Source: an uncultured Chromatiales bacterium
GTDB taxonomy: Bacteria; Pseudomonadota; Gammaproteobacteria; Steroidobacterales; GCA-2729495
DNA length: 14,903 bases
Assembly: GCA_913058165.1 (NCBI GenBank)
Contig: CAJXQV010000004.1
Coordinates: 1-14,903 of the forward strand
Direction: 5' to 3'
Made by a program: the position numbers and the translations under genes. Positions 1-3,762 of the stretch are shown here, one piece after another; within the stretch, counting starts at the first letter, position 1, and every line of letters starts with the position of its first letter. Under the pieces are notes generated by a model. That model searched no databases. It was given only the letters and a program-made list of their open reading frames with translations, and was not told where the DNA came from.

Positions 1-31
1 GTCGGCAGCGTCAGATGTGTATAAGAGACAG
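1..31. other. Nextera Read 1 adapter (library artefact)
   Basis: These 31 bases match the 3' part of the Illumina Nextera Read 1 transposase adapter and end in the 19-bp Tn5 mosaic end AGATGTGTATAAGAGACAG. They are not genomic. The smc reading frame is cut exactly where they begin, so the assembly used untrimmed reads. Confidence 0.98.
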
Positions 32-462
32 ATAATGGAATAACTGCGAGGACCCAAACCGGTGCCGAGGAAAATACTCACAATGTCCTTGCGGCGACAA
101 CGCACATTATTCAAAAAATACTGGGAAGTGCCGTCACGGGAGACCTTGCGACGGATCGATATTTCGGCGTAGCCGGCAAACTGCCCGGTGATGGTGCCAT
201 CACTGTTATCAAAGAACAGCTCGATAGAAGCCGAACCAACCGGCTTACGCTGCGAGGAACCGTTAAAGATAACGTCAGTCATGTTATCGCCACGAAGGTT
301 CTTGGCGGAGCTTTCACCCATCACCCAACGTATGGCATCAATAACATTCGACTTACCACAACCGTTCGGTCCGACAACGCCCACGAGATTGCTAGGCAGC
401 AAAATGGTGGTTGGATCGACGAATGATTTGAAGCCTGCCAGCTTAAGTTTGCTTAGACGCAC
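32..462 (-). CDS. smc: Chromosome partition protein Smc, N-terminal part (3'-truncated by contig end)
   Basis: The first 143 residues of the SMC ATPase, which compacts and segregates chromosomes with ScpA/ScpB. The protein begins [14 protein letters not shown], the typical opening of bacterial Smc. It carries the Walker A P-loop GPNGCGKSN near residues 33-41, then [20 protein letters not shown], and later CRRKDIV and [13 protein letters not shown], all hallmarks of the SMC N-terminal head half. Full Smc is usually about 1150-1200 residues; the coiled coils, hinge and C-terminal head lie beyond the contig end. The start is the GTG at 462-460: an in-frame TAA lies two codons upstream (468-466) and no ATG lies between, with only a weak ribosome site. 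It is divergent from queF. Family assignment is very secure; the start is likely. Confidence 0.95.
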
Positions 463-1220: not shown

Positions 1221-1254
1221 TTCACTAGCGCCGCTGCCTATGTATAATGCCGCG
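1221..1254 (+). promoter_or_regulatory. dksA promoter with GC-rich discriminator
   Basis: TTCACT (1221-1226, four of six -35 bases), a 16-base spacer and a perfect TATAAT (1243-1248) are followed at once by GCCGCG (1249-1254). Transcription would start near 1255, leaving a leader of about 29 bases that contains the ribosome site AAGGG before the ATG at 1284. A GC-rich discriminator is the sequence feature of promoters inhibited by ppGpp and DksA, and dksA is known to repress itself in E. coli. Regulation here is inferred. Confidence 0.6.
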
Positions 1255-1283
1255 TTTTCAGACTTTTTAGTAAGGGATTCCGC

Positions 1284-2336
1284 ATGGCTTCTAGGAAGAA
1301 ATCTCCCAAAAAATCAGCGAGCAAGAAATCGCCTGTAAAGAAGGCCGCTACCGCCAATAAGAAGGTGGGCAAGGTCAGTACCAAGAAAGCGACCAAAAAG
1401 GTTGCTAATAAACCTGCGGGCAAGACAAAGGCAGCTTCTAAGAAGAAAGTGGTCAAGAAGGTCGATAAAAAGACCCCTTCTAAGAAGAAAGTGGCCAAGA
1501 AGGTCGAGAAAAAGGCCTCTTCTAAGAAAAAAGTCATTAAGAAAGCCGACAAAAAGACCTCTTCTAAGAAGAAAGTGGCCAAGAAGGTCGATAAAAAGGC
1601 CTCTTCTAAGAAGAAAAGCGCCAAGAAGATCGACAAAAAGGTCTCTTCTAAGAAGAAAGCCGTAAAAAAAGCCTCGACTAAGAAAACAGCTTCCAAGAAG
1701 AAAGCTGTAAGTACGACTAAGGCCGCCGCTAAGAAAAAGGCCGTGGCAAAACCTGTCGTTAAAAGCGTCAGTAGTAAAAAGGTTAGCACCAAGAAAAAGG
1801 CCGTTAAAAAGCCTAAAGAGAAGCGAGTTATTAATAAACCCACCCCGCCCAAACGCATTCGCGTTTCGGAACGTAAACGCAACGTTCAGTTCAGCGATGC
1901 AGAAGATGCAATCCATGGTATTGCACCTTATAAATCAACGGCTGGCGAACACTACATGAATGATGATCAGCTCGACCACTTCGAGGGCATTTTGCTAGCC
2001 TGGAAAGCCGAACTGATGCAGGAAGTCGATCGCACTATGCACCATATGCAGGACGAAGCCAGCAACTTCCCCGACCCTACCGACCGTGCAACCCAGGAGT
2101 CTGAATTCGGACTGGAGCTGCGCACCCGTGACCGAGAACGTAAGTTGATCAAAAAGATCGACTCAACGCTCAAACGCATTGAACAAGGTGACTATGGCTA
2201 CTGCGAAGAAACCGGTGAAGAAATCGGTCTGCGTCGCCTGGAAGCCCGTCCCGTAGCAACACTTTCGGTCGAGGCTCAGGAACGCCGTGAACTTGCGGAA
2301 AGACAATTCCGTGACAATGACGATCGTTACCGGTAA
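1284..2336 (+). CDS. dksA: RNA polymerase-binding transcription factor DksA with long lysine-rich, histone-H1-like N-terminal extension
   Basis: DksA enters the RNA polymerase secondary channel and, with ppGpp, adjusts transcription in the stringent response. Residues from about 194 to 350 align with the whole of E. coli DksA at a constant offset of 193. The coiled-coil tip NFPDPTDRA has Asp264, Asp267 and Ala269 (E. coli D71, D74, A76), and Arg284, Leu288, Lys291 and Arg322 match ppGpp-site residues R91, L95, K98 and R129, while K139 is Gln332. Of the four zinc cysteines only Cys307 remains; the others are Thr310, Ser328 and Ala331, as in zinc-independent DksA types. Residues 1-190 are an extra domain with about 79 lysines in the first 185 residues, rich also in Ser, Ala and Val, with five exact-length 14-residue repeats at 52-121; it resembles AlgP and histone-H1-like proteins. 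The ATG at 1284 has a good ribosome site; the internal Met225 has none, so the long form should be made. Confidence 0.95.
   Translation: MASRKKSPKKSASKKSPVKKAATANKKVGKVSTKKATKKVANKPAGKTKAASKKKVVKKVDKKTPSKKKVAKKVEKKASSKKKVIKKADKKTSSKKKVAKKVDKKASSKKKSAKKIDKKVSSKKKAVKKASTKKTASKKKAVSTTKAAAKKKAVAKPVVKSVSSKKVSTKKKAVKKPKEKRVINKPTPPKRIRVSERKRNVQFSDAEDAIHGIAPYKSTAGEHYMNDDQLDHFEGILLAWKAELMQEVDRTMHHMQDEASNFPDPTDRATQESEFGLELRTRDRERKLIKKIDSTLKRIEQGDYGYCEETGEEIGLRRLEARPVATLSVEAQERRELAERQFRDNDDRYR
1437..1646 (+). repeat. Five tandem 42-bp repeats inside dksA
   Basis: Five consecutive 42-base units encode residues 52-121, consensus SKKKVAKKVDKKAS, each with one acidic residue (Asp or Glu) at position 10. 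Units 2 (1479-1520) and 4 (1563-1604) differ by a single base. A degenerate sixth unit of 15 residues follows at 1647. Near identity at DNA level points to recent expansion and possible length variation. Confidence 0.92.
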
Positions 2337-2366
2337 ATCACTGCTACAGACTCCCTGCGGTTGCAA

Positions 2367-3314
2367 ATGACCAGCCGGGAGGAGCCTAACCGGCCGCAAG
2401 CCTCGCAGAATAAAGGCTACCGGGGTCGTTTCGCTCCTTCACCAACAGGGCCCCTGCACTTTGGGTCATTGGTCACAGCCATTGCCAGCTATTTAGAAGC
2501 GCGCTGCAATGATGGTGAGTGGCTTGTCCGGATAGAAGATCTCGACCCTCCACGCGAAGTTGCGGGTGCCGATACGGATATTCTTCGCGCACTCGATGCG
2601 CACGGCTTTGAATGGGATGAAGAACCCCTATGGCAAAGCACCCGCTTAGACATATACGCTAGCGCGCTGAGTGAACTTCACGCGGGTGATCTCGCCTACG
2701 TCTGTCACTGCACCAGGAAGCAACTTAGTGGTTTGGCGAAGCCCGGTCCGCTGGGGCTAATTTACCCAGGCATCTGCAGTAAAAAAAACCATTCATTCGA
2801 TACGCGACATGCCATCAGACTGCGCACCGACGAACATGCGGTTAGCTTCAACGATAAATTACAGGGTCATACCGAACTAAATCTGCATAAAAATGTTGGC
2901 GACTTTCTGCTTCGTCGTGGCGATGGCCTCGCGGCTTACCATTTAGCCGTTACTGTCGATGATGCCCTGCAGAATATCACTGATGTCGTTCGCGGCAGCG
3001 ATCTGCTGATGTCGACCGCTTGCCACATTCACTTGCAACAACGCCTCGGCTATGTCGAACCAAGCTATATGCATCTTCCGATAGCGACCGATGCCAGCGG
3101 TAAAAAGCTCTGCAAACGCGGCGGTGCCGATGAACTGGACCTCGCACTCGCCGGGGTCAATTTACTGCGGGGAATGCGGTTTCTAGGACTGAGTCCACCC
3201 ATTGAACTCGAAAATGCCGGAATCGCCGAAATCTGGCTCTGGGCAAGGGATAGCTGGAGCATAGAGCCGCTGCGAGGGGTTCTGGAAAGACCTGAAATTG
3301 GACATCTTAAGTAA
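2367..3314 (+). CDS. gluQ: Glutamyl-Q tRNA(Asp) synthetase
   Basis: GluQ-RS is a GluRS-like enzyme without an anticodon-binding domain. It activates glutamate and attaches it to the queuosine at position 34 of tRNA(Asp). From the ATG at 2367 it has 315 residues, near the family's usual 290-310. FAPSPTGPLHFGSL (22-35) holds the HIGH-type signature; the zinc site is Cys113, Cys115, Tyr133 and Cys137, with a longer loop than in E. coli. The KMSKS-type motif reads KKLCK (246-250), with Cys where Ser is usual. It lies 30 bases after dksA, the conserved dksA-gluQ arrangement, and is probably co-transcribed. It also needs queuosine, the product of the pathway that includes the nearby queF. A TTG two codons upstream (2361) is an alternative start; neither start has a strong ribosome site. 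Confidence 0.95.
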   Translation: MTSREEPNRPQASQNKGYRGRFAPSPTGPLHFGSLVTAIASYLEARCNDGEWLVRIEDLDPPREVAGADTDILRALDAHGFEWDEEPLWQSTRLDIYASALSELHAGDLAYVCHCTRKQLSGLAKPGPLGLIYPGICSKKNHSFDTRHAIRLRTDEHAVSFNDKLQGHTELNLHKNVGDFLLRRGDGLAAYHLAVTVDDALQNITDVVRGSDLLMSTACHIHLQQRLGYVEPSYMHLPIATDASGKKLCKRGGADELDLALAGVNLLRGMRFLGLSPPIELENAGIAEIWLWARDSWSIEPLRGVLERPEIGHLK

Positions 3315-3435: not shown

Positions 3436-3762
3436 ATGGACAGTAACCCAAGACTCATTCGGAAATACGCAAACCGGCGACTTTATGACACGGCGCAAAG
3501 TCGCTATGTCAATCTTCACGATGTTCGGCTCCTTATCCTGGCTGGCAAATACATAAAAGTTGAAGACCAGGCGACGAAGAGCGACATCACCAACAGCATT
3601 CTGTTGCAGATTATTGCCGCACAGGAGCCGGAAACAGGTCCACTACTCTCCTCGGACATACTGACGGACCTGATCCGTACCAGTGCAACCAATCAGGATC
3701 CGGCACTGGCGGGAAAGCTGCAGCAGGCCTGCCGGGGCGTTCTAAGCATTCATAATCATTAA
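3436..3762 (+). CDS. Short PhaR-like polyhydroxyalkanoate synthesis regulator (DNA-binding domain)
   Basis: The first 65 residues are a clear PhaR/PHB-accumulation regulator DNA-binding domain: RLIRKYANRRLYDTAQSRYVNL, then the block IKVEDQATKSDITNSILLQII. PhaR represses phasin and PHB genes and senses PHB granules. This protein has only 108 residues, against about 180-200 for typical PhaR. The rest (66-108) is a shortened version of the following region, LLSSDILTDLIRTS, so it keeps DNA binding but little of the C-terminal part. The ATG at 3436 has the ribosome site AGGGG (3422-3426). No PHB synthesis genes are in the window, so a link to PHB is inferred from family only. Ends before a bidirectional terminator. 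Confidence 0.85.
   Translation: MDSNPRLIRKYANRRLYDTAQSRYVNLHDVRLLILAGKYIKVEDQATKSDITNSILLQIIAAQEPETGPLLSSDILTDLIRTSATNQDPALAGKLQQACRGVLSIHNH

Follow-up and report, generated by a model that had tools for sequence, protein, structure and literature searches.

Does the long dksA frame at this locus encode a single protein in which a lysine-rich, histone-H1-like tail is joined to a DksA body, and what could such a tail contribute to a factor that, to our knowledge, is usually cited as binding RNA polymerase and not DNA? Mechanistic work on DksA has been carried out mainly on the form of about 150 amino acids from Escherichia coli. In the stretch analysed here (the window; 14,903 nucleotides of contig CAJXQV010000004.1 from an uncultured Chromatiales bacterium), dksA is a single open frame on the forward strand (1284..2336; ATG start, stop codon at 2334-2336) with a predicted product of 350 amino acids and 39.3 kDa. 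It is separated by a gap of 176 bases from a queF-like gene (688-1107) and lies directly upstream of a gluQRS-type glutamyl-tRNA synthetase-like gene (2361..3314, forward strand; PF00749), a conserved neighbour that accompanies dksA in 74 of the 98 loci spanning 3.3 kb or more, a count in which some genomes appear twice. The frame comprises the tail (residues 1-190; 1284..1853), a linker (residues 191-208; 1854..1907) and the DksA body with the stop codon (residues 209-350; 1908..2336), delimited by Pfam, TIGR02420 and the alignment to E. coli DksA, which begins only at residue 209. The initial annotation had described a DksA fused in frame to a 190-residue lysine-repeat domain, and this description holds, the body being complete by Pfam and TIGR02420. 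It was the only DksA match in the source genome (73% complete), and a RelA/SpoT match was present in all six genomes tested, the source genome among them. At the start of the contig, an SMC-like open frame on the reverse strand (1..462) runs into positions 1-31, which we take to be Nextera transposase adapter, and its terminal residues are adapter-coded. Two genes past dksA, a PhaR-like regulator of polyhydroxyalkanoate accumulation (PF07879) is encoded at 3436-3762; PhaF-type granule proteins likewise bear H1-like tails (PMC9239181, in excerpt).

Residues 1-190 contain 80 lysines, 26 alanines, 24 serines and 22 valines, together with two arginines, four aspartates and two glutamates, in agreement with the earlier count of about 79 lysines and very few acidic residues (six). 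The tail has a net charge of +76, compared with −10 for residues 225-350, and its lysine density reaches 11 per 20 residues, with at least nine lysines in 91 of 187 20-residue segments. The 14-residue repeats that had been reported were recovered as an array of 42-nucleotide units on the forward strand (1385..1715), with six in-register places at 42-nucleotide spacing that are 63-86% identical to a 121-nucleotide reference copy. The proposed likeness to AlgP and to bacterial H1-like proteins stood as far as composition is concerned (net charge of +55 for the AlgP tail according to excerpts of PMC9239181, vs. +76 here) and failed at the level of family and repeat motif. The histone H1-like model HC2 (PF07382) gave no match in the window protein at E 0.001 nor in genome G000 at E 0.01, and was discarded as a family label for the tail, although some homologues carry it. 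No KPAA repeat of the AlgP/PhaF type was found in the tail sequence, which is N-terminal whereas the AlgP/PhaF repeats are C-terminal. Pfam at E 0.001 detected only DksA_N and zf-dskA_traR in the window protein, and no CarD_CdnL_TRCF domain.

As had been claimed, the frame is preceded by a promoter and a ribosome site, at least in sequence: a promoter-like TTCACT-16-TATAAT (1221..1248, forward strand), whose TATAAT starts 41 nucleotides before the ATG at 1284, and a ribosome-site-like AAGGGA (1272..1277, forward strand), six bases ahead of it. Two promoter-like sites were found between 1050 and 2450, compared with 0.7 expected from shuffled sequences. Among 145 tailed genes with sufficient sequence ahead of them, 72 had TATAAT within 80 nucleotides of the tailed start, all 72 belonging to the 97 from the order of the window; it was absent from all 145 control stretches of 80 nucleotides taken inside genes, which are coding DNA of different base composition. 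A Shine-Dalgarno-like motif was found at 123 of the 145 starts. In both counts the tailed start was recognised as a start codon followed by a small residue and then by lysine or arginine within two residues. In most of the 72 genes the TATAAT (1243-1248 in the window) is placed 38-54 nucleotides ahead of the start codon, and as a consensus promoter element it is unusually well kept.

In-frame start codons occur at residues 1, 28, 56, 70, 98, 154, 225 and 237, with none between GTG154 and Met225, and the gene call P0002 (197 amino acids) starts at GTG154, inside the tail. Met225 is implausible as the true start because it aligns with Met32 of E. coli DksA, inside the fold, and does not vary among 46 aligned proteins, while coding constraint upstream and the position of the promoter argue against GTG154. 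Over the same 570 bases one antisense frame has no stop and another has a single one; since lysine codons leave antisense frames nearly as open, the open frame alone is little proof, and the case for the tail rests on conservation across species and not on openness. The antisense open frames 1238..1882 and 1314..1916 were taken as shadows of the lysine codons.

A DksA longer than annotated has been documented in Xanthomonas euvesicatoria by means of peptides, start-codon mutants and western blot, the long protein being translated from the first GTG with a processed form also present (PMC5559785, in excerpt). That protein is N-terminally extended as well (listed as 256 vs. 147), and the likeness drawn here to the window protein concerns this extension and its translation from an upstream start. 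Both cases indicate that automatic start calls (P0002 here) can truncate such tails. The fusion, previously judged to be probably real, is supported at sequence level by its retention in relatives and by its own promoter-like and ribosome sites, and the long tailed DksA is very probably translated; given the P0002 call and the processed form in X. euvesicatoria, some tail-less molecules may exist beside it.

Comparison with the same-genus genome G001 showed 72% identity of the tail over 182 aligned codons (pS 0.46, pN 0.19), vs. 99% identity of the body. The dN/dS values of the tail, 0.30 over the 182 codons and 0.27 ahead of GTG154, indicate coding constraint but are rough, as they were computed on an alignment of repeats. 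Lysine was preferentially retained: of the 77 tail lysines aligned between the two genomes 73 were kept, compared with 49 of 95 other residues; with shuffled tails the kept fractions were 0.69 for lysines and 0.26 for other residues, so that the aligner accounts for some of the difference. In G002, of the same genus, the gene is divided between two contig ends, one carrying the first 53 tail residues and the other the body, as if the assembly had broken within the tail. The tailed architecture recurs in many relatives, but the sequence of the tail is conserved only inside the genus: among six genomes searched, residues 1-190 matched G000, G001 and G002, all of the genus, and not G007, G010 or G012.

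Every one of the 157 tails that reach 60 amino acids or more has a net positive charge, which exceeds +20 in 131 of them. Against third-position GC, rho was −0.52 for lysine, 0.32 for arginine, 0.37 for alanine and −0.44 for charge per residue. Positive charge is thus favoured in the tails, but bent by base composition. A strongly charged tail is not a general requirement, since charge falls with GC and the weakly charged tails of family f11 have a median of +14.

In order to describe the distribution of the tail, it was classed by the lysine count of its most lysine-rich 20-residue segment (strong, at least 9; moderate, 6-8; none, fewer than 6), measured from the first in-frame ATG, GTG or TTG, which overshoots in some genomes. 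The 227 genomes classed were 122 from the order of the window and 105 sampled elsewhere in the class, after removal of second copies, of sequences scoring under 120 bits and of ten loci with a frame running to the edge of the stretch. Within the order 65 genomes had a strong tail, 36 a moderate one and 21 none, vs. 31, 17 and 57 in the rest of the class. The latter sample leans towards window-like DksA, as it was made up of the best 30 loci outside the order and others hand-picked among the matches listed (336 of 369 genomes matched), with 80 class stretches chosen to spread over families. A strongly tailed member was found in 11 of 15 families within the order and in 22 of 75 outside it. The tailed DksA is not confined to the source genome, strong or moderate tails being carried by 101 of the 122 order genomes and 48 of the 105 sampled elsewhere. 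When the label (strong or not strong) was mapped on a FastTree phylogeny of the bodies, it changed 31 times, compared with a mean of 72.5 and a minimum of 61 in 100 shuffles, a pattern of inheritance combined with recurrent gain or loss.

DksA-family proteins with tails were also seen in one MAG from the Alphaproteobacteria (L074) and in one from the PVC group (L076); both loci were retrieved by means of lysine-rich words, so that no frequency can be derived from them. No lysine-rich tail was present in the seven classed f13 genomes and the two classed f14 genomes (e.g., L181 and L132), the latter family having small genomes of 1.1-1.6 Mb; both families are natural controls for the tail. Many tailed DksA proteins stand in the protein database under plain DksA names or under none, and no description of a lysine-rich DksA tail was found in the titles and abstracts listed from the open-licence literature. 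The lysine-rich tail of DksA is widespread and apparently unremarked, and it may be in print elsewhere.

The body itself was assigned by Pfam to DksA_N (residues 229-299) and zf-dskA_traR (302-336), and it scored 161.5 bits with TIGR02420 (dksA), above the cut-off of 115.5. The narrower model NF008045 gave 184.9, under its cut-off of 289, and the TraR model TIGR02419 gave 19.3 bits vs. a cut-off of 59.7, so the protein is not a TraR. It aligns to residues 16-149 of E. coli DksA, window residue 209 corresponding to residue 16. The acidic tip of the coiled coil (D71, D74 and A76) is identical, as are R91, L95, K98 and R129 of ppGpp site 2, where Gln replaces K139 (four of five residues kept); Thr stands in place of Asn88. 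The zinc positions C114, C117, C135 and C138 read Cys-Thr-Ser-Ala, that is, one of four cysteines is kept, which places the protein outside the four-cysteine zinc-finger subtype as a zinc-finger-degenerate DksA. The changes in the finger and at position 139, which the initial annotation had passed over, fall at 2202-2300 in the window (DksA residues 307-339).

In an alignment of 173 relatives, which takes the whole upstream open segment as tail, counts one genome under both L060 and G001 and holds a second copy from each of two genomes, position 117 is Thr in 127 and Cys in 46, position 138 is Ala in 127 and Cys in 46, and position 139 is Gln in 127 and Lys in 46. The equal splits make it appear that these changes go together, and a coupling of zinc loss to a change at ppGpp site 2 is possible, judging from equal counts and not from row-by-row linkage. 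In E. coli DksA, K98, R91 and K139 coordinate the ppGpp phosphates, L95 and R129 making further contacts (PMC7676912, in excerpt). Strong tails were found on one-cysteine (27 of 66), two-cysteine (37 of 61) and four-cysteine (26 of 46) proteins alike, so the tail is not tied to the loss of the finger, and compensation for that loss is not supported as its explanation.

Relative to E. coli DksA (TIGR02420; PDB 1tjl and 7khi), the window protein thus has the same body, tip, R91/L95/K98/R129 and gluQRS-type neighbour, and differs in the added 190-residue lysine tail, in the single remaining cysteine, in Gln139 and in Thr88. A finger depleted of cysteines, in which Thr and Ala occupy two of the zinc positions, is shared with PDB 4ijj, a sequence match which we take to be the zinc-independent DksA2 of Pseudomonas aeruginosa. 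In contrast to the window protein, the 136-residue sequence of 4ijj is tail-less and carries Cys and Lys where the window protein has Ser135 and Gln139; DksA2 also has a paralogue, whereas the window protein is the only DksA found in its genome, at the completeness given above. Zinc-independent DksA2 is accepted as a DksA and can replace its paralogue, according to excerpts of PMC10393844.

Precedents for the tail come from other proteins. The tails of AlgP and PhaF are long, disordered, lysine-rich and H1-like and are reported to bind DNA, and AlgP sits on polyphosphate granules (PMC9239181, in excerpt). They differ from the window tail in being C-terminal, built of KPAA repeats and attached to unrelated bodies, whereas the window tail is N-terminal, has Ser/Val-rich repeats and is attached to a polymerase-binding factor. 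A comparable architecture is that of CarD of Myxococcus, in which a polymerase-binding domain is joined to a disordered DNA-binding tail (PMC8156234 and PMC4182748, both in excerpt). The DNA-binding domain of CarD can be replaced by HMGA, by H1 or by the H1 C-terminal region, and CarD retains some function without it, as the available part of PMC8156234 states. However, CarD has an unrelated fold that sits on the beta subunit and a C-terminal AT-hook tail, and is restricted to myxobacteria.

In view of the AlgP/PhaF and CarD precedents and of the opposite charges of tail and body, we lean towards reading the tail as a disordered polycation that would tether DksA to nucleic acid, the disorder, the binding and the tethering all being inferred. 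The gene would make one long DksA, whose body would enter the secondary channel of RNA polymerase and act with ppGpp like an ordinary DksA. The tail, of the H1 type, would bind nucleic acid without sequence specificity, DNA in the first place and RNA in the second, and would hold DksA near transcribing polymerase, raising its local concentration, while its charge would offset the negative body. Any effect on the strength or the kinetics of the stringent response is likewise inferred. Counting against this reading, the tail sequence diverges outside the genus, f11 tails are weakly charged, 21 of the 122 order genomes have no such tail, and comparable tails stand on other proteins of the family.

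The tail might instead mainly strengthen the complex of DksA with polymerase, or with polymerase and ppGpp, by electrostatic docking on the polymerase or the nascent RNA, perhaps offsetting a zinc-less Gln139 body, nucleoid tethering then being incidental. In its favour, three zinc cysteines are missing from the body and Gln replaces Lys139, one of the ppGpp-phosphate contacts of E. coli (PMC7676912, in excerpt), but strong tails also occur on 26 of the 46 four-cysteine, Lys139 proteins, compared with the 27 of 66 and 37 of 61 for one- and two-cysteine proteins, and we regard this explanation as improbable, though worth keeping in view.

Hardly different in standing, and if anything a touch less probable, is a habit of the lineage or near-neutral drift, by which basic low-complexity tails would be added to many proteins and DksA would gain little beyond solubility or a mild affinity for RNA. 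This is a real rival. Similar tails are present on other proteins in the family of the window, namely an N-terminal H1-like Lys/Arg tail on an Hsp20-like protein of G007 (L275:1504-2328) and a Lys/Ala-rich C-terminal stretch on an S2-like ribosomal protein of G010 (L276:1474-2433, reverse strand), both names being read from the sequence, so the tail need not be specific to DksA. The tracking of GC by tail composition and the 31 changes of the tail label on the tree point in the same direction, but the frame, the start, the lysines and the position of the promoter are all kept, and clustering of the label on the tree far exceeds that in the shuffles (31 vs. a mean of 72.5 changes).

A tail that binds polyphosphate, and thereby links DksA to the granules or to the level of this polymer, is less probable still. 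The lysine density of the tail (up to 11 in 20 residues, at least nine in 91 of 187 segments) compares with nine lysines in 20 in the polyphosphate binders EngA and SrmB, and a title cited in the same source says that DksA regulates polyphosphate accumulation in E. coli (PMC12077175, in excerpt); the granule localisation of AlgP (PMC9239181, in excerpt) also agrees with this reading. The polyphosphate kinase PPK1, the one polyphosphate enzyme covered by the comparison, was matched in 51 of 60 strongly tailed order genomes; it was not matched in the other nine, which include all four classed f10 genomes. Among the 48 strongly tailed genomes that are at least 90% complete, five had no match, and PPK1 was present in 17 of 21 order genomes without such a tail. 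G002 (94% complete) has no PPK1 match and yet has the start of the tail. These tailed genomes without a PPK1 match (9/60) weaken the polyphosphate partner suggested earlier, if taken as required, and disfavour the tail as an obligatory polyphosphate binder.

That the tail is untranslated and the real protein begins at GTG154 or Met225 is very improbable, since the P0002 call at GTG154 and the processed DksA of X. euvesicatoria (PMC5559785, in excerpt) are outweighed by coding constraint ahead of residue 154, the conserved TATAAT and Shine-Dalgarno-like motif at the long start, the location of Met225 inside the fold and the use of the upstream start by X. euvesicatoria itself (same excerpts).

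Returning to the tail as a nucleic-acid tether, a broader proposal, which we put forward only tentatively, is that the tailed DksA of many Gammaproteobacteria is putatively chromatin-bound, retained on the nucleoid by its H1-like tail, that nucleoid compaction and competing polyanions would set the amount reaching the polymerase, and that gene calls starting inside the tail have contributed to hiding it. Should many DksA proteins of the Gammaproteobacteria bear a polycationic tail, they may differ in search, residence time and dose response at the polymerase. If the reading of the tail is true, DksA would connect the state of the nucleoid to the stringent response.
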